A stretch of 64,000 nt of DNA from a bacterium (GCA_021792615.1 JAJYUJ010000013.1:1-64000), one strand, 5' to 3'; positions 1-9,867 are shown, numbered from the stretch's first letter. Numbers and translations: made by a program. The notes: a model not told the origin generated them from the sequence alone.

Positions 1-573
1 GGAGACAAATCTCACAGTGCTTTTTCAACAACATTGCAGAGATTGAGATTGCTGACCGGTAATGATACGTGCCTCCAGCTTAAGGAAGGCCGGTTGTCCC
101 TCGATCCCCGATACTGCTGGGTCGACGCATGGGCTTTTGAGCATCTCATGGACAGAGGCGATGCTTTGTGGAGCAGCAACCGCGATGAGGCGGCGGTCAT
201 AACCGCACGGGCTGCCGTTATGTACAAGGGCAGTTTTTTACCCAACGACACCGACCAATGGTGGACTACGTCTATGCGCGAGCGCATCAAAAGTAAGTTC
301 ATCCGTTCCATCAGCAGCCTGGGAAACTATTTGGAAGAGAATGGAAAATGGAGAGAGGCCCTGGAGTATTATCAGAAAGGGTTGGAAGCGGATAATCTGT
401 CGGAGGAGTTCTACCAATCCCTTATGTTGTGCTACCAATCAATGGGAAGAACCGGAGAGGCTTTGGCAGTGTACAACAGGTGTAAAAAAACACTTTTAAC
501 CATACTCAATATAGCTCCTTCATCCAAAACCGAAGCCCTTTATCAAAAGATAAAGGCTTCTCCGACAAGGTAG
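1..573 (+). CDS. SARP/BTAD-type transcriptional regulator, C-terminal part (truncated by window edge)
   Basis: The reading frame is open from base 1, so only the last 190 residues are present. It opens with the end of an OmpR-like winged helix (HSAFSTTLQRLRLLTG resembles the recognition helix of trans_reg_C domains), followed by a hairpin segment (GRLSLDPRYCWVDAWAFE) and a helical BTAD domain with TPR-like repeats (EALEYYQKGLEAD, GEALAVYNRCKK). This order is typical of SARP regulators and of large ATPase regulators that carry this module at the C-terminus. Such proteins bind direct repeats spaced by one helical turn and recruit RNA polymerase. The three downstream promoters carry exactly such repeats, so this protein is the likely local activator. 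The sensory part lies outside the window. Confidence 0.85.
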   Translation, partial: GDKSHSAFSTTLQRLRLLTGNDTCLQLKEGRLSLDPRYCWVDAWAFEHLMDRGDALWSSNRDEAAVITARAAVMYKGSFLPNDTDQWWTTSMRERIKSKFIRSISSLGNYLEENGKWREALEYYQKGLEADNLSEEFYQSLMLCYQSMGRTGEALAVYNRCKKTLLTILNIAPSSKTEALYQKIKASPTR

Positions 574-677
574 ACGCGGGTTTATCGCCCATTGCATTAA
601 CTTCCTTTTTATTTCAAACGAATTTTTTGGGTTAACCGATTTGAACCATAGAAACGGTTTACTAACAATTTCTCCAT

Positions 678-712
678 TTGTGACCAATCTGTGACTTTTC
701 GTGTGGTAAAAT
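678..712 (+). promoter_or_regulatory. SARP-like promoter 1 (11-bp-spaced direct repeats plus extended -10)
   Basis: TGTGAC occurs at 679-684 and again at 690-695, an 11-bp period. Eleven bases later comes an extended -10 element, TGG then TAAAAT at 707-712. No good -35 hexamer is present, as expected for an activator that covers the -35 region. Two more copies with the same layout occur at 2975 and 3761. The predicted transcription start is near 719, just ahead of the gene beginning at 722. Confidence 0.75.
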
Positions 713-721
713 TCAGCCATT

Positions 722-982
722 ATGGAAAACAAAGACCTTATGAAAACTTATATTATCCGTATTTACCGGCACAATATAGCGGATTCCAGATTTATTGTGG
801 GGACCGTAGAAAAAGTCGGTGTTCATGGAAAAATGGCTTTTTCCAACAGAGACGAACTCTGGGAAATCATGAATTCCAGCAGCATAAAGCCGGAAAAACA
901 CGACAACCAAAAGAACAGGTCACCGGCAATAAAATCCGTTATTCAAGAAATTTCTACAAAACAAAAAGGAGGAAAACAATGA
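722..982 (+). CDS. Small conserved cytosolic protein, function unknown
   Basis: This is an 86-residue protein without signal peptide. Its core (YIIRIYRHNIADSRFIVGTV, then KMAFSNRDELWEIM) resembles small hypothetical proteins I recall from deltaproteobacteria, in which a beta-rich half ends in a helix. Its stop overlaps the start of the lipoprotein gene (ATGA at 979-982), so translation of the two is probably coupled. The chosen ATG at 722 lies only a few bases after the predicted transcription start; the in-frame ATG at 740 (MKTYIIRIYR) is an equally plausible start. No function can be assigned. Confidence 0.65.
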   Translation: MENKDLMKTYIIRIYRHNIADSRFIVGTVEKVGVHGKMAFSNRDELWEIMNSSSIKPEKHDNQKNRSPAIKSVIQEISTKQKGGKQ

Positions 983-2394
983 AAACAAAACACTTAAAAA
1001 AAACAAGTTTGTTCAGCATGTTTATGCTGATAGCGCTCCTGGCAGGGGCAGGGTGTCAGGGAAGTAAAGGCGGCGGTGCTTCGCAATCAACAACGGTATC
1101 TTCTGCAACAACATCCGGCGGACTCGCGACGATAAATACCGGCAATCTGGTAATAGCCTTTATCCCGTCTACTTCCGGGGTAAGCGCGGTGCCTATAAAG
1201 CAGAGCGGGTCTTCGTTTACCACTGCATCGTACAAAGGATACTCTCTGAAACCCCAGTCACTGCCGGCTCCGGTAACCATAACCATATCGTTTATGGTGA
1301 ATAGCTGCGCTGCAGACGCTCAAAACCTGAAGGTCGTGTGCGTAGGTTACAACAGCTCAAAAGTCGCGGTCATCAATGTTGCAGGATACATCAGCAGCGG
1401 TTCTGCCCCCACGGTAACGGAATATGATCTGGGCAATTCGGTAACCTCCGGTTTCAGCGGCGGGAGCTGCCTTGACTGCGGCGTCATCATAGACCCGCTC
1501 GATCACGGATTCATCGTATCATCGGGAGACGGATACCGGGTCGTCAATTATTCCGGGTCTGTGATAAAATCATTCCTGTCCAATGCGTCTGCGACACCCC
1601 CGGTTGACCTTGCAACGGAAAATTTCGGATATGACCCTGTCCACGACATGATATACTCACCTGAATACGCTGACGGCGGATCCATAACATCGACGGATGA
1701 GTATCTATGGGTAATAGATGTCACCAAAGACAAGCTCTATCAATGGTCACACAGGATGGTGGATACAGCGACGGACCCGGCCTTAGGCATACCCGAGCTG
1801 AACAGCACAGGCATTGGCTCCATGACCGCAGATGCTGTTGCAATGGATCCAGAAACCGGAATCATGGCCATAGGACATGAATGGACGCCGCTTTTGCTTG
1901 CTCTCAATATGAGCGCAGCAACGTTCAACGCATCTGCCGGGACGTTTGACGCTCCGTATGCAGTCATCCCCCTGCAAAACGTTTATTCTCCGAGTGGTTT
2001 GCTTACCACGGGCATGGTGATAGAGCCGTCGAGCCACATCATGTTCCTTGAGGGCGAATTCGGGGACGAAATCGGGGCGGCACAGATGCCGGCGACCTCG
2101 CCATCCGGGAGTTTCACGGTCACATCCTACACATCCGCCCAAATGCCGACACCGACAACATGGTGTCCTGCCGTATCAACATGGAGCAATGTTGGTGATC
2201 CGCACGGGCTTTCCGCTTTCACAGCAGTCATCAATAAAGAGCCCATGGGACTTCTCATCGACGGTAGTAGATCGTGCCTTGCCATCGTAGACCTGAACAA
2301 GCTCCTTGCAGCACCGAAACAGGCGGGAACCAACACGGTTTCTTCAACCTATGATCTGGTGGCTAACGGGGTAATTAGTTTTATAGGAATATAA
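979..2394 (+). CDS. Secreted lipoprotein, probable beta-propeller-like protein of unknown function
   Basis: The start at 979 follows an AAAGGAGG ribosome site, and the product (471 aa) has a clear lipoprotein signal ending in LAGAGC with the lipid-carrying cysteine at residue 26. The mature part starts with a GSKGGGA linker that is nearly identical to that of the lipoprotein at 3820. The body is rich in Ser, Thr, Gly and short beta-strand-like stretches (KVAVINVAGYISSG, GFIVSSGDGYRVVNYSGSVIKSFL) suggestive of a beta-propeller surface protein. Cysteines in GSCLDCG and elsewhere could form disulfides. An upstream extension of the frame exists but lacks a ribosome site and a signal peptide, so it was not used. 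It shares a SARP-like promoter with the preceding gene. Exact function unknown. Confidence 0.75.
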   Translation: MKTKHLKKTSLFSMFMLIALLAGAGCQGSKGGGASQSTTVSSATTSGGLATINTGNLVIAFIPSTSGVSAVPIKQSGSSFTTASYKGYSLKPQSLPAPVTITISFMVNSCAADAQNLKVVCVGYNSSKVAVINVAGYISSGSAPTVTEYDLGNSVTSGFSGGSCLDCGVIIDPLDHGFIVSSGDGYRVVNYSGSVIKSFLSNASATPPVDLATENFGYDPVHDMIYSPEYADGGSITSTDEYLWVIDVTKDKLYQWSHRMVDTATDPALGIPELNSTGIGSMTADAVAMDPETGIMAIGHEWTPLLLALNMSAATFNASAGTFDAPYAVIPLQNVYSPSGLLTTGMVIEPSSHIMFLEGEFGDEIGAAQMPATSPSGSFTVTSYTSAQMPTPTTWCPAVSTWSNVGDPHGLSAFTAVINKEPMGLLIDGSRSCLAIVDLNKLLAAPKQAGTNTVSSTYDLVANGVISFIGI

Positions 2395-2433
2395 CCTATT
2401 GCAGCATGGAGAAAACTTTAGGCTAATCGCACC

Positions 2434-2474
2434 AAAATGCGGGCAAGGATGCATTCCTTGCCCGCTTGTTTTTT
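2434..2474 (+). terminator. Rho-independent terminator
   Basis: A perfect 10-bp stem (GCGGGCAAGG at 2439-2448 with CCTTGCCCGC at 2456-2465), 7-base loop, is followed by TTGTTTTTT. It ends the lipoprotein transcript that stops at 2394. Confidence 0.9.
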
Positions 2475-2542
2475 GATCTACCGGAACTTTTCTGTTTTCG
2501 GGATGTTTAATAATATAAATATAAACAAAAGGAGACAGGAAC

Positions 2543-2800
2543 ATGAAAAAAAGAATTATAGGGTTCACAGGGTTGTTAATCGTGTTGCTGACAGTGGTTT
2601 TTTGCGCAGCCCCGGCAGTGAATACTGCACAGGCATCAGGTCCACACCCCCGGATTGTTAAGGCCATAGATATGCTCAGGAACACGAGGTCAGTCCTTGA
2701 ACAGGCACCATCCGTGTTCGGCGGGCACAAGGCAATAGCCCTAAAACGCGTCAATGAAGCAATACATCAACTGCGCCTGGCCATGAAGTATGCGCGTTAA
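2543..2800 (+). CDS. Small periplasmic helical protein, function unknown
   Basis: This 85-residue protein has a signal peptide of roughly 32 residues (KRIIGFTGLLIVLLTVVF, then a cleavage region ending in AQA). The short mature part is helical with the pattern HPRIVKAIDMLRNTR, then FGGHKAIALKRVNEAIHQLRLA. That FGGH-K/R-A...NEAI-QL pattern recurs in small exported proteins of many proteobacteria, which have no assigned activity. It has a ribosome site (GGAGACAGG) and lies between two strong terminators, so it is a single-gene unit. It lacks the SARP-like promoter motif of its neighbours. Confidence 0.75.
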   Translation: MKKRIIGFTGLLIVLLTVVFCAAPAVNTAQASGPHPRIVKAIDMLRNTRSVLEQAPSVFGGHKAIALKRVNEAIHQLRLAMKYAR

Positions 2801-2862
2801 CGCATAAAACGGTTCAAACAGACTACGTTCAACGTTGGGTTACTGGTTTCATTTGAATGGAT

Positions 2863-2894
2863 GTTCGCCGCAATCCCCGCTGTTTACAGCTTGG
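2863..2894. repeat. Dispersed hairpin repeat, partial copy
   Basis: It begins GTTCGCCGCAATCC and continues into a small hairpin, GCTG-TTTA-CAGC, then TTGG. The reverse complement of the element at 11849-11891 starts with the same 14 bases and has the same hairpin layout. Here the outer closing arm (GGCGAAC) is missing, so it looks like a decayed or partial copy. Confidence 0.6.
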
Positions 2895-2909
2895 TACTTC
2901 AATTTCCGG

Positions 2910-2935
2910 GGCGGGGCTTTGCCCCGCCTTTTTTT
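2910..2935 (+). terminator. Rho-independent terminator
   Basis: A perfect 8-bp GC-rich stem (GGCGGGGC 2910-2917 with GCCCCGCC 2921-2928), triloop TTT, is followed by seven T. It ends the transcript of the small periplasmic protein gene at 2543-2800. Confidence 0.92.
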
Positions 2936-2974
2936 ACACACTCTTCCCGTCATTCTTTTCACAAAACATTCCAA

Positions 2975-3010
2975 TCTGTGACCGATCTGTGACTTTTCGC
3001 GTGGTATACG
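2975..3010 (+). promoter_or_regulatory. SARP-like promoter 2
   Basis: CTGTGAC at 2976-2982 and 2987-2993 (11-bp period), then 11 bases, then an extended -10 (TGG, TATACG at 3005-3010). The 3' half, from TCTGTGACTTTTCG to GTGGTA, is shared with the other two copies. The gene starting at 3046 lies about 30 bases from the expected transcription start. Confidence 0.78.
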
Positions 3011-3045
3011 ATGAGCCATCTAAAAAAGATAAAAGGAGAAAAAGT

Positions 3046-3663
3046 ATGAAAAGAATCAGCATGACCGTAGTAGCATTCCTGATAATACTTGCATGTGCAG
3101 TAACTTCACAAGCGGGTTATGTGGGAAGCTCAAGCCAAACATGGCAAGGTGGAGGGCCTGTATGGTCTGTCGCCCCCAAGCTTATAGTTTTCTTTCCCAA
3201 CAGCAGTGATCCAGGCTTAAATAATTTTGGCCCTGGTGTTGGTATCGGAGTTGACGGGCGTTATAATTTTATCAAGTATTTTGCCTTAGCGGGAGAACTT
3301 GATTATATTGGAGCCTCAAGCGCTACTATAGGTGGTTCGACTGAAAATTTCAGTAACTTTGCAATCAAGGTCGATGCCCTCGGTACAATACCATTAAATA
3401 GAATAACGCCATTCTTTGGACTTGGTCTGGTATACAATAACCCAAGCGTATCCGTTAGTGGCGGAGGCTACTCAAAGTCTTTGAGCGGAAGCGGTATTGG
3501 GTTGGAACTTGTAGGAGGAGCAGACTTCGTCGTAACAAAAAACGGTGCAGTTACCGCTCAAATCTCGATCCCGATCAGTCAGGGTGCCACGTTCAATGGC
3601 AGCAGCACAACTGTAGATGTTGGTGTTTACGAACTTATGGCAGGGTATAGGTTTCTTTTTTAG
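3046..3663 (+). CDS. Outer-membrane beta-barrel protein (OmpW/OmpA-like small barrel)
   Basis: The ATG at 3046 follows AAAGGAG and gives a 205-residue protein with a Sec signal peptide ending near TSQA-GY. The mature chain alternates polar and hydrophobic residues in the manner of an eight-stranded barrel (FNFGPGVGIGVDGRYNF, FAIKVDALGTI, ITPFFGLGLVYN, GVYELMAGYRFLF) and ends in phenylalanine, the usual recognition residue for the BAM complex. Its role could be a passive pore or an adhesin; nothing in the sequence decides this. It is a single-gene unit with SARP-like promoter 2 in front and a strong terminator behind. Confidence 0.8.
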   Translation: MKRISMTVVAFLIILACAVTSQAGYVGSSSQTWQGGGPVWSVAPKLIVFFPNSSDPGLNNFGPGVGIGVDGRYNFIKYFALAGELDYIGASSATIGGSTENFSNFAIKVDALGTIPLNRITPFFGLGLVYNNPSVSVSGGGYSKSLSGSGIGLELVGGADFVVTKNGAVTAQISIPISQGATFNGSSTTVDVGVYELMAGYRFLF

Positions 3664-3692
3664 CCCTACTTCTTAGTCTCTTGTTCATTATG

Positions 3693-3724
3693 AAAAGGTG
3701 TGCGCTCTGCACACCTTTTTCTTT
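3693..3724 (+). terminator. Rho-independent terminator
   Basis: GGTGTGC (3697-3703) pairs with GCACACC (3709-3715); flanking AAAA and TTTTT extend the stem, and the T tract ends the barrel-protein transcript. Confidence 0.88.
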
Positions 3725-3760
3725 GGTTACACCTCTAACGCCCTGTCGGCAGCCCCCCAA

Positions 3761-3796
3761 TCTGTGACCGTTCTGTGACTTTTCGCGTGGTATAGT
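3761..3796 (+). promoter_or_regulatory. SARP-like promoter 3
   Basis: CTGTGAC at 3762-3768 and 3773-3779 (11-bp period), 11 bases, then an extended -10 (TGG, TATAGT at 3791-3796). The layout is base-for-base the same as in copies 1 and 2. Transcription should start near 3803, 17 bases before the next gene. Confidence 0.78.
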
Positions 3797-3819
3797 TTCA
3801 GTATAATAAGGAGTAACAA

Positions 3820-5769
3820 ATGAAAACAATGATCCACAGAACAATGTTCGTCTCGATGTTCGCCCTGCTTGGAATAGCAGGATGCAGCAGTGGTTCAAAA
3901 GGCGGCGGAGCCCCTGCTCTACCCGTTATCCACAGTTTAAGTATCCAGGGATTACCTGCACATCCCGGAAATACGGTCACTGCAACAGTGAATGCAAGCA
4001 GTCCGGCCAGCCTGGCACTGACCTATACATGGACGGTTTCCGGCACATGGTCGGTCGGCAGTGGAGCAAACACATCAACAGCAATACTCACAGCACCCAA
4101 TGCGTACAGTGCAGGCGGTTCGGTCACGGTGATAGTGTCCGACACCAGGGGCGGCTTTGTCACCGGCACATCGTCATTAAGCACACAAGGAAACAGTGCA
4201 CCAGTCATACATAATCTTGCGGTATCTGCCAACCCCGTATTCACAGGTTCCACAATAACCGCAACCGCCGGTGCGTCCGACCCTGACGGAGACACGCCTG
4301 CATATACATGGGCGGCGAGTACAGGATGGGCTGTCACCGGCTATGGTGCAACGGCAACCGTAACAGCACCTTCCGTACACAGTGCCGCAGGTAATATTAC
4401 GGTAACCGTCAGCGACGGATACGGAGCTTCCGCAAGCAGTTCGATTGCAATCGACACAACCTCGGACAGCGCACCCGTGATAACATCTATGACCATATCC
4501 CCGCAGCCGGTTACCACAACCGCAAGCCTTGTATCCAGTGCCTACGACCCTGACGGAGACAGCCTGCTGACCTATACATGGAACATAGGCGGAACGAACA
4601 TAACAACGGGTAGCAGCGCAATATGGCAATCACCCGGCATATCCGGCAATTATAATGCCGTGGTCAGTGTGAGCGATGTATACGGGTCAACGGCAACACA
4701 GGGCAGCTCCATCAGTGTAACCAGCCAGAGCCCGTGGCCAAAGTTCAGGAACAACCTCCAATCCACAGGGCTGAGCGGGATCAGTGCAACCCCTACAACA
4801 GGTGCACTGGAGTGGAGCTTCACGACAGGTAGCTCGGTAGATCCCTCACCCGCTATAGGTGCTGATGGAGCGATCTACGTAGGCAATGGCAATGGTTATC
4901 TATACGCGTTAAACGTTACCAATGGCACTCTGCTATGGAACTATTCTGTCGGGGGGTACCTGTATTCCTCACCGGCAATTGGTGCCGATGGCACGATCTA
5001 TGTTGGGATGGGGTATGATCTCTATGCGATCAATCCCAATGGTACCAAAAAATGGAATTACGCAACCGGCAATATGGTCGATTCCTCTCCGGTAATTGGC
5101 GCTGACGGTACCATATATGTAGGGTCATGGGATGCTCACCTTTATGCAATCAATCCGGATGGCGGCATGAAGTGGAGCTACACCACCGGTGGAAGGGTAA
5201 ATTCCTCACCTGCAATAGCACCTGATGGGACAATATATGTAGGCTCACAGGACGATCATCTTTATGCAATCAATCCGGATGGCGGCATGAAGTGGAGCTA
5301 TACAACCGGGAACTTGATAGATTTCTCTTCTCCTGCAATAGGTGCCGACGGAACCATCTACATAGGCGCGTTTGATAGAAAGCTCTACGCTATCAATCCC
5401 GACGGTACATTCAAATGGAGCTACACTACCCCGGGCGATATCGAATCTTCTCCGGCAATAGGCGCTGACGGCACAATTTATGTAGGGTTTGGCTATGTCG
5501 GGCCCGGCGGCCTCTGTGCTATCGATCCAAACGGTGGATTCAAGTGGAGCTATACAACCAGCCAATGGATAAGCGACGCCCCTGCCATTGGATCGGATGG
5601 CACAATCTATGTTGGATCAGTAAATGATTACCTTTATGCGATTAATCCGAACGGCGGACTCAATTGGAGCTACACAACGGGTAATCCAATTTATTCGTCT
5701 CCAGCGATCGGGGCAGATGGCACAATCTACATAGGGTCAGACGACGGACACCTCTACGCGTTTCACTGA
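3820..5769 (+). CDS. Surface lipoprotein with three PKD/Ig-like domains and an eight-repeat PQQ-type beta-propeller
   Basis: This 649-residue protein has a lipoprotein signal (LLGIAGC, lipidated Cys22) and a GSKGGGA linker shared with the lipoprotein at 979. Residues about 35-300 hold three PKD/cadherin-like repeats, each starting PVI and ending in a VTVSD-type strand. After SPWPKFRNN come eight repeats built on SPAIGADGTIYVG...LYAINPDG...KWSYTTG, the pattern of PQQ-like beta-propellers that do not necessarily bind PQQ. It is probably anchored at the outer surface and may act in adhesion or scaffold binding. The near-identical repeats suggest recent internal duplication. SARP-like promoter 3 and an AAGGAG ribosome site precede it. 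Confidence 0.85.
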   Translation: MKTMIHRTMFVSMFALLGIAGCSSGSKGGGAPALPVIHSLSIQGLPAHPGNTVTATVNASSPASLALTYTWTVSGTWSVGSGANTSTAILTAPNAYSAGGSVTVIVSDTRGGFVTGTSSLSTQGNSAPVIHNLAVSANPVFTGSTITATAGASDPDGDTPAYTWAASTGWAVTGYGATATVTAPSVHSAAGNITVTVSDGYGASASSSIAIDTTSDSAPVITSMTISPQPVTTTASLVSSAYDPDGDSLLTYTWNIGGTNITTGSSAIWQSPGISGNYNAVVSVSDVYGSTATQGSSISVTSQSPWPKFRNNLQSTGLSGISATPTTGALEWSFTTGSSVDPSPAIGADGAIYVGNGNGYLYALNVTNGTLLWNYSVGGYLYSSPAIGADGTIYVGMGYDLYAINPNGTKKWNYATGNMVDSSPVIGADGTIYVGSWDAHLYAINPDGGMKWSYTTGGRVNSSPAIAPDGTIYVGSQDDHLYAINPDGGMKWSYTTGNLIDFSSPAIGADGTIYIGAFDRKLYAINPDGTFKWSYTTPGDIESSPAIGADGTIYVGFGYVGPGGLCAIDPNGGFKWSYTTSQWISDAPAIGSDGTIYVGSVNDYLYAINPNGGLNWSYTTGNPIYSSPAIGADGTIYIGSDDGHLYAFH

Positions 5770-7518: not shown

Positions 7519-9867
7519 ATGAAAAGAATGGCTTACTTAGTTATAACGGCTTTATTGTTCAGTATACTGACAACAGGGTGCACCAGTTCGTCATCCGGAG
7601 TGAAATCATATAAACTCGGAACATTCAATGTTCAGGTCGGCGGTACAACCCTGTCTGTTACAGACCAATTCGGCAGGACTATCCTGCCGGGCTATAATAA
7701 CACTTTTATGTTTGGCAGCGGCACGCCGTCCGTAAAAGAAACATTCGGCTCTTTTGCCATTACAGAGACAGCAACATGGATAAAGCCTGTATCGTTTACT
7801 GTACTCTCCTCAAATAACGGATATATGAGCATTGCGGTAAATACACCCCTCGGCAATTCCTATGCTCAGGGCTATATAAGTATAACCCCTATCAGCACTA
7901 CCCTGCTCGGCATATCCATTACGGCACCTGCCGGTACAACAGCAACCGGTCAGCCCATCAACAGGACAATGCTGAATATGGCATGCAGCAGTAATGATCA
8001 TTTTTACGGGCTTGGCGAGCAGTACAACAGCTTTGATCAAAAGGGCAATATCGTTGGTATATGGACACAGGATCACGGATTCTTGCAGGACACTCTCATT
8101 GCATCGAGTTTTCAGGCAGCACTGCACCCGACATACTTCCCCGAGCCGTTTATGCTGACGAGCAAGCCCGCAGGGCTGCTTATCAGTTCGGCAGCGTACA
8201 GCAAGTTCGACCTTTGTGCTTCAAACGCAAAGCAGGCAAGCATAGAGCTGTGGGACACCACGATGCATATTATTCTTATCTCTGATTCTGATCCGATCCA
8301 TATTATCCAGGACTTCACGGGCATTGTGGGCAGACAGCCCCTTTCTCCGCCCTGGGTCATAGGCCCGTGGATTTCGGTCGAGGGCGGCAGTCTTTCTTTA
8401 ACGACCACTGCAGACCAGTTGCGTACGAACGGCATACCCTCCTCCGCAATATGGTATCAGGATTGGGTCGGGGGAAACGCTGATGGACCCAGGTACGACC
8501 TCCCCTACCACTGGACACCGGATTATACCCTGTATCCCGATATGGCAGGGGTGAATATGACCCTCAATACCATGGGGTTCAAGGCTCTCGCATACTTTAA
8601 CAGTTTTGTGGATGAAGCCCTGGACCAATGGACACAGGCGACAACAAACGGCTATCTGATAACCGGCAGCGCAGGCCAGCCGTACACGTTTACCGGCGCT
8701 CACGGCACTCCCGAGAGCATGGTGGATCTGACCGACCCTGCTGCAAACACATGGGTCGAAGGCTACATGCAGAGCGCCACGACACTCGGGTTCAGCGGAT
8801 GGATGGCTGATTTCGGCGAATATCTTCCGTTTGATTCATACATGCAAGCCGGTGCAGCGCCCATGCTTCATAATGAATACCCGGTGCTCTGGGCAAAATT
8901 GAATTATCAGGCCATGTCCACGGAAATACCCTCCGGCGATTTTGCATTTTTCATGCGATCGGGCTATCTCGGTTCACAGCCGTACCAGCCGGTTGTATGG
9001 GGAGGGGATCAGAATACGGACTTCGATCCGACCTTCGGCCTGCCGACGGTAGTACCCGCTGCGATCAACATGGGCATATCCGGTGTGCCGATATTCACAC
9101 ACGACATAGCCGGCTTTTCAAGCGTAGCAAATCCGCCGTCAACGCAGGAACTCTACTTCAGATGGACAGAGCTCGGATGCTTCACCCCGGTCATGCGAAC
9201 GCACAACGGTCTGGATTACTTTACAAACTGGAACTGGAATTCCAACACCGCTACGATCCAGATGTTCAAAACCTATGCAACCCTTCATGTCGAACTGTTT
9301 CCGTATATCTATACCTACCTTACCCGGGCGCACGATAGCGGTACACCCATTATGCAGGCATTGTGGCTGAAGTATTACACTGATCCGAAAACGGCAACAA
9401 TTGATGACGAGTATCTGTTCGGCGACAATATGCTGGTAGCACCGGTCATCACGCAGGGTGCAACGAGCAGAACCTTGTACCTGCCCCAAGGCAACTGGTA
9501 TCCGTTCAACGGCGGGAATGCTGTTGCAGGAGGTGTGAGCGTAACCGTTTCTGCACCCGTGGACAGCATCCCGGTCTATGTTCCGGCAGGTTCTATAATA
9601 CCTATGCTCACCCAGGCGCCGGACACGCTGATAACCGGCACAACCGTAACAACCGGTACAACCCTTGCGGATGTCATTACTGCACAGACCATCCGTGTGT
9701 ACCCGGGTGCAAGCGGGAGTTTTACCGTGTACGATGGCTCTTCTTTCTCGCTCACGTCATCAATAACGGGATTAAATCCGGCAAACGGGCTTGCATTGAC
9801 TGATGGAAGCGGCCAGGCGCTCCAGCCGTGTGCTGCCACAGACAGCAGCGTGTTGCATGTGGTATGA
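7519..9867 (+). CDS. Glycoside hydrolase family 31 lipoprotein (alpha-glycosidase), 3' end frameshifted
   Basis: The product is 782 residues with a lipoprotein signal (SILTTGC). GH31 marks are clear: FYGLGEQ near the N-terminal beta domain, PPWVIGPWIS, IWYQDWVGG, the nucleophile motif GWMADFGEYLP (Asp), and FMRSGYLGSQ...VWGGDQNTDF, where the aspartate of GGDQ is the expected acid/base. GWMADFGEYLP and the FMR...GDQN block resemble the sulfoquinovosidase (YihQ) branch, but the RxxW sulfonate signature recalled for YihQ is not visible, so the substrate is open. It should cleave alpha-linked glycans at the cell surface. The last strand of the C-terminal domain is missing from this frame and continues in another frame (see 9864-9965). 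AAGGAGG precedes the start. Confidence 0.88.
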   Translation: MKRMAYLVITALLFSILTTGCTSSSSGVKSYKLGTFNVQVGGTTLSVTDQFGRTILPGYNNTFMFGSGTPSVKETFGSFAITETATWIKPVSFTVLSSNNGYMSIAVNTPLGNSYAQGYISITPISTTLLGISITAPAGTTATGQPINRTMLNMACSSNDHFYGLGEQYNSFDQKGNIVGIWTQDHGFLQDTLIASSFQAALHPTYFPEPFMLTSKPAGLLISSAAYSKFDLCASNAKQASIELWDTTMHIILISDSDPIHIIQDFTGIVGRQPLSPPWVIGPWISVEGGSLSLTTTADQLRTNGIPSSAIWYQDWVGGNADGPRYDLPYHWTPDYTLYPDMAGVNMTLNTMGFKALAYFNSFVDEALDQWTQATTNGYLITGSAGQPYTFTGAHGTPESMVDLTDPAANTWVEGYMQSATTLGFSGWMADFGEYLPFDSYMQAGAAPMLHNEYPVLWAKLNYQAMSTEIPSGDFAFFMRSGYLGSQPYQPVVWGGDQNTDFDPTFGLPTVVPAAINMGISGVPIFTHDIAGFSSVANPPSTQELYFRWTELGCFTPVMRTHNGLDYFTNWNWNSNTATIQMFKTYATLHVELFPYIYTYLTRAHDSGTPIMQALWLKYYTDPKTATIDDEYLFGDNMLVAPVITQGATSRTLYLPQGNWYPFNGGNAVAGGVSVTVSAPVDSIPVYVPAGSIIPMLTQAPDTLITGTTVTTGTTLADVITAQTIRVYPGASGSFTVYDGSSFSLTSSITGLNPANGLALTDGSGQALQPCAATDSSVLHVV

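Follow-up and report, generated by a model that had tools for sequence, protein, structure and literature searches.

Direct-repeat promoters of surface-protein genes as predicted operators of a MalT-like regulator with a C-terminal SARP module

A regulator gene and three promoters of one architecture

The analyzed window, a stretch of 64,000 nucleotides, starts at base 1 of contig C23 in a 2.54-Mb assembly of 77 contigs. It opens with the C-terminal part of a regulator gene (1..573, plus strand), encoding the end of a winged helix with the recognition helix HSAFSTTLQRLRLL and a BTAD domain (E=1.4e-25). This ORF is cut by the contig end. Its N-terminal part ends contig C60. C23 and C60 overlap over 127 identical bp, which makes it probable that the gene runs on from one contig to the other. 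Paralogues of the regulator broken at contig ends are also found on contigs C70, C72, and C26 of the same genome (L033, L034, and L083, respectively). The breaks share a near-identical stretch; this family has several similar copies, which split the assembly.

Full-length orthologues are about 1,120 aa long and consist of a MalT-like NTPase, a TPR region, and then the winged helix and BTAD; in a protein of 1113 residues the NTPase occupies residues ~21-429 and the SARP module residues 866-1107. The NTPase matches 8bob (E=1.6e-19) and, below the cut-off of that model, NF003420 (E=2.5e-47), while the TPR region has a weak TPR_MalT match (E=4.2e-5), also below cut-off. The winged helix and BTAD align to the SARP domain of AfsR over both parts (8hvr, E=2.7e-5), and NF053617 gives a partial match over residues 866-1101. 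In three full-length regulators no GerE match, the mark of a LuxR-type helix-turn-helix, was found, the SARP module standing there instead, and the regulators had no Response_reg match that would reveal a receiver domain. These domain matches make the regulator a STAND protein whose MalT-like NTPase and TPR region are followed, at the C-terminus, by a SARP module, that is, an OmpR-type winged helix plus BTAD. The earlier note on this DNA had named the right class for the gene upstream of the promoters, a BTAD/winged-helix regulator, but the gene is not a small SARP: it is the C-terminus of a MalT-like STAND ATPase. A tblastn search of plasmids returned only distant BTAD proteins.

Three promoters on the plus strand follow, all composed of ATCTGTGAC, an 11-bp step, ATCTGTGAC again, eight bases, TGG, and a -10 hexamer, apart from one variant repeat each in promoters 1 and 3. 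Promoter 1 (676..712; profile E=2.4e-12) has the repeats ATTTGTGAC at 676-684 and ATCTGTGAC at 687-695, TGG at 704-706, and the -10 hexamer TAAAAT at 707-712. In promoter 2 (2974..3010; E=2.8e-14) both repeats are ATCTGTGAC (2974-2982 and 2985-2993), followed by TGG at 3002-3004 and TATACG at 3005-3010. Promoter 3 (3760..3796; E=3.0e-13) contains ATCTGTGAC at 3760-3768, TTCTGTGAC at 3771-3779, TGG at 3788-3790, and TATAGT at 3791-3796. The string TGTGAC-N5-TGTGAC-N4-CG-N-GTGGTA occurs three times in the window at 0 mismatches and 0 times in 100 dinucleotide shuffles, which bears out the common architecture that the earlier note had seen, and the tract TCTGTGACTTTTCG(C/T)GTGGTA, described there as conserved, is indeed exact in all three promoters. 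The sites are near-identical across about 38 bp (n=3).

Two details of that description had to be adjusted. The TGTGAC hexamer pairs start at 679/690, 2977/2988, and 3763/3774, and the heptamers at 678/689, 2976/2987, and 3762/3773; the second and third pairs had thus been placed correctly, and the first, given as 679/690, was one base off. The distance of exactly 11 bases had been assigned to the interval between the second repeat and TGG. It is in fact the distance to the -10 hexamer, TGG included, and TGG itself follows after 8 bases. A relaxed scan of the window for TGTGAC-N5-TGTGAC with two mismatches yielded 5 matches against 4.2 expected, and the extra matches are due to chance. The TGTGA word suggested a CRP/FNR site, which was rejected because the TCACA partner is absent and the repeats are direct.

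Each site precedes its own transcription unit (722-2394, 3046-3663, and 3820-5769), so that the targets form three separate units and not one operon as previously thought. The first unit starts with a gene for a small protein (722..982, plus strand; start at 722 or 740) with the core YIIRIYR...VGTVE...AFSNRDELWEI and a predicted fold of three strands and a helix. It has no match in Pfam or NCBIfam; the structure model is confident for residues 1-45 only, and a fold search with it gave nothing significant (best E=1.1). The second gene of this unit (979..2394, plus strand) encodes a 471-aa lipoprotein with the lipobox LLAGAGC and no known domain or Pfam match, whose structure prediction, made from four near-identical sequences, reaches only pLDDT 40. 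The second unit (3046..3663, plus strand) is a single gene for a 205-aa outer-membrane beta-barrel protein (OMP_b-brl, E=8.5e-13), and the third (3820..5769, plus strand) encodes a 649-aa lipoprotein with Ig/PKD-like domains followed by a PQQ-type beta-propeller (Beta-prop_ACSF4, E=1.9e-65; PQQ_2, E=7.4e-33; Big_9). By a simple rule, a lipobox occurs in 3 of the 57 other window ORFs of at least 100 aa. Two further genes lie nearby, both lacking a motif of their own: one for a small exported 85-aa protein without a Pfam match between promoter units 1 and 2 (2543-2800), and one for another lipoprotein (7519-9867), which, reading the sequence by eye, we take to be probably a glycoside hydrolase of family 31.

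Distribution of the sites and of the regulator

A genome-wide search, envisaged already in the earlier note, was productive. With up to three mismatches the pattern has four sites in the 2.54-Mb genome, and the reversed control has 0. The fourth site (contig C7:77832, minus strand) was found by both the pattern and a profile of 43 columns built from 22 sites; the profile recovers the same four sites at E <=1.1e-11 and nothing else up to E=1. All four precede genes for lipoproteins or outer-membrane barrels.

The phylum as sampled is one GTDB family of nine genomes, of which seven contain the 22 sites. An exported gene follows 20 of them, and the other two (G007 C20 and G001 C243) reach contig ends first. 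In the family, the sites lead to lipoproteins of the beta-propeller or collagen-like type, to outer-membrane barrels, or to the small protein with a lipoprotein after it. Among the window's targets, the 471-aa lipoprotein is kept behind the same promoter in G002, G004, and G007, as seen in alignment; the barrel gene has the same promoter in G002 and G007, and the beta-propeller lipoprotein gene in G002 and G001. From the first repeat through the -10 hexamer the sequence is near-invariant across sites and genera, the flanks diverge, and an A-rich tract is located about 10 bp upstream. Thus, the alternative raised in the earlier note, a widespread motif unrelated to exported proteins, does not describe the data: the genome has four sites, and in the family every target that can be seen is exported. 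Two sites in G007 have a single TGTGAC repeat with the TTTTyxTGTGxTATA part intact, one before a collagen-like lipoprotein (C39, L112, about 1500-1530) and one before an alpha/beta-hydrolase (C15, L113, about 1507, minus strand); these may be half-lost or single-site promoters.

In a phylogeny of 25 BTAD regulators from this family, the regulator orthologues form one clade of seven (support 100/99), one per motif-bearing genome. G003 and G005 have neither a clade member nor a TGTGAC site, and G005 has other BTAD regulators. The support from seven of nine genomes alone is modest (Fisher p about 0.03). In five genomes the clade regulator gene stops 51-108 bp short of a site; in the remaining two the distance from its end to one is 1.7-3.5 kb. 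The connection between regulator and sites, proposed in the earlier note, is supported at the sequence level by this phyletic pattern, by gene neighbourhood in seven genomes, and by repeat words that vary together with the recognition helix among paralogues and distant homologues.

The small protein shows a related distribution. It often comes after the promoter, and its homologues are encoded behind related regulators in G316, G366, G251, G008, and G006. Among 386 genomes, convincing matches (E <1e-7) come from seven of the family and from four others (G237, G251, G316, and G366), and STAND-SARP matches are present in all of these; no repeats were seen upstream of the small-protein gene in G237.

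Repeat words and recognition helices

Paralogues and distant homologues of the regulator are accompanied by other 11-bp-spaced words, CTGTAAG, CTGTAGT, CTGTAAC, and CTGTTAC, still with the -10 hexamer at N11. Behind regulators outside the clade we observed CTGTAAG/ATGTAAG/CTGTAAG, N11, TAGAAT in G005 (C56) and two copies of CTGTAGT, N11, TAGGAT in G008 (C70). Outside the phylum, the HyVt-415 MAG has CTGTAAG twice, N11, TAATTT; G316, CTGTGAC/CTGTAAC/CTGTAAC, N11, TATAAT, with TGA ahead of the -10; G366, three TGTTAC units, N11, TATAGT; and G251, CTGTAAC/CTGTAAG, N11, AAAAAT, about 650 bp behind the gene. In a strict test for repeats within 700 bp of such regulator loci, 5 of 10 pass, versus 0.05 expected from shuffles. 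No recognizable repeats were seen behind the homologues in G237 and G099 or behind the second copy in G251, which we count against the proposed link.

Exact CTGTAAG-N4-CTGTAAG occurs at fourteen sites in seven of the nine family genomes, four of them in the genome of the window, with TA at exactly N11 in 13 of the 14 and a TGN-TA extended -10 in 11. The general pattern CTGTDAS-N4-CTGTDAS-N8-TGNTA is found in 8 of 386 genomes, namely seven family genomes and G316, which carries a homologous regulator; the reversed control gives 0. Matches to a degenerate pattern in G005 (C1 and C148) and G001 (C26) have no TA at N11 and were put down to chance. The 80%-complete assembly G003 contains CTGTAAG sites, and no BTAD gene was found in it; this observation is likewise counted against the link.

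The recognition helix is STTLQRLR in the TGTGAC regulators, V(N/T)(I/L)IRLR in the CTGTAGT group, (T/N)(I/L/T)HRLR in the CTGTAAG/CTGTAAC regulators, and MTLSRLR in the CTGTTAC regulator. One residue tracks the word: Q corresponds to TGTGAC, H to TGTAAG or TGTAAC, I to TGTAGT, and S to CTGTTAC, a correlation with few independent changes behind it. In AfsR, T88 and R92 contact bases and S91 contacts a phosphate (PMC10936776). If the register is set by the shared RLR motif, the varying residue would correspond to AfsR S91 and the invariant arginine to R92. In the large paralogue clade with helix H, most regulators have no repeat right behind them, and its probable link to the CTGTAAG sites is drawn from the common helix and the presence of both in the same genomes.

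In the window's genome (G000), CTGTAAG repeats of the same geometry mark a second regulon class, at C11:31380(-), C18:28420(+), C33:762(-), and C57:14501(+) (L117, L126, L129, and L132). The genes behind these sites code for a response regulator, a DnaJ/TPR protein encoded next to DnaK, a PAS/LuxR-type protein, and a protein of 396 aa that has no Pfam match. In G008, a CTGTAAG pair on contig C88 (L131, 1501-1518, minus strand) is located in the 5 kb upstream of a STAND-SARP gene on the same contig, and autoregulation of that gene is possible. G316 has two further CTGTAAC pairs with TGN-TA (C44 and C59; L210 and L211). Their targets are not clearly exported, and therefore surface proteins as the common target may be a peculiarity of the window's family.

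Proposed mechanism and its place among known systems

Taken as a whole, we consider the three promoters to be predicted operators of the adjoining regulator, a putative tandem-dimer activator of extended -10 promoters, with a probability of roughly 0.85. A ligand and ATP would switch the ATPase/TPR part. Two SARP modules would then occupy the 11-bp direct repeats as neighbours on the same DNA face, at the -35 position, and would recruit RNA polymerase with its sigma factor to a promoter that lacks a -35 and has an extended -10. Activation would turn on surface proteins: the small protein with its lipoprotein, the outer-membrane barrel, the beta-propeller lipoprotein, and, elsewhere in the genome, a collagen-like lipoprotein. 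The choice of word would reside in the recognition helix.

The main competing explanation makes the sites boxes for a response regulator of the OmpR/PhoB type, with the STAND-SARP gene a mere neighbour or itself a target. The binding sites of such winged helices are 7-bp direct repeats separated by 4-bp spacers, and the repeat word resembles the pho box CTGTCAT of E. coli; such similar reading is counted against our interpretation. PhoP of Mycobacterium tuberculosis, with the same repeat length and spacer, reads TCACAGC, the reverse complement of GCTGTGA and nearly that of the word here, but it is a response regulator with a receiver domain and has neither BTAD nor a STAND ATPase (PMC4832192). 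An OmpR-type response-regulator gene does lie near the G007 locus (L044 10853-11554). However, no response-regulator gene is common to the loci, whereas the STAND-SARP gene is, and the sites lie behind this gene, not in front of it. Changes of word go along with changes in the STAND-SARP recognition helix, the pattern is absent from genomes that lack a STAND-SARP gene (most of these necessarily have PhoB-type regulators), and the targets are not phosphate genes. We regard this explanation as improbable.

Still less probable is a role of the bound regulator as repressor or silencer. The repeats extend into the region where polymerase binds, and a protein sitting there could block it. However, the promoters lack a -35 element, an extended -10 at fixed distance is a usual trait of activator-dependent promoters, the fixed N11 spacing points to polymerase contact, and BTAD/SARP proteins are activators (PMC10936776). 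Finally, an alternative sigma factor promoter, or a promoter element recently copied without a regulator, would fit the near-identity of the window sites but is highly improbable, given flanks and genes that differ between sites, a core kept across genera, and triplicated repeats (G005, G316, G366) and word changes at constant 11-bp periodicity, which are unlike a sigma factor.

The reading as operators of a SARP-type activator agrees with known large regulators in part. AfsR of Streptomyces coelicolor also unites an OmpR-type winged helix, BTAD, a STAND ATPase, and TPR in one protein, and its dimer binds a pair of 11-bp direct repeats that cover the -35 region and lie near the -10 (PMC10936776). 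It differs in domain order (the SARP module is N-terminal, with NOD and TPR after it, whereas the order here is ATPase, TPR, SARP), repeat word, distance to the -10 (8 bp versus 11 here, counted against an AfsR-like reading), lineage, and targets (antibiotic control versus surface proteins). In PimR and other SARP-LAL proteins the SARP is fused to a LuxR-family large-ATPase part, and the operators have two or three heptamers with 4-bp spacers; however, the SARP is N-terminal, the word is CGGCAAG, the targets are polyene antibiotic clusters, and the main operator of PimR does not overlap the -35 (PMC5930380). MalT, the STAND activator of maltose genes, has its NTPase and TPR N-terminal, in the same order and position as here, but a C-terminal LuxR-type helix-turn-helix in place of the SARP module. 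HilA of Salmonella, a non-actinobacterial protein with an OmpR/ToxR-type winged helix, controls surface structures through direct repeats; it has no STAND ATPase, and its repeats, lineage, and targets are different. Of the SARP-class features, the winged helix directly followed by BTAD and the target repeats 11 bp apart near the -10 are present, and the 8-bp distance to the -10 and the N-terminal SARP module with extra domains C-terminal are absent. The predicted mode of action is that of AfsR and PimR, yet the regulator departs from the canonical large SARP, and its resemblance to MalT is confined to the sensor and does not extend to the DNA-binding domain. Among open-licence papers we found none on C-terminal SARP-STAND regulators or their operators.

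A broader possibility, which we put forward tentatively, is that these loci represent a multi-phylum module: a MalT-type STAND sensor with a C-terminal SARP, a direct-repeat promoter behind its gene, a conserved, dedicated partner of ~50 residues with a beta-beta-beta-alpha fold that might act in feedback or as an anti-activator, and then surface or secreted proteins. Such a module would have been duplicated repeatedly, each copy evolving its own word via one or two helix residues, so that natural variation would spell out the SARP base-recognition code.

SARPs are known chiefly as activators of antibiotic clusters in Actinobacteria. Here the same DNA-binding and activation module is found at the opposite end of a STAND sensor, in an uncultured lineage and in others unrelated to it, and appears to control cell-surface proteins. 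Paralogues with different words at fixed geometry constitute a natural experiment on base choice by this winged helix, and the small protein offers a specific new candidate for a partner in signalling. Regulons of this kind are predictable from sequence in bacteria that have never been grown.
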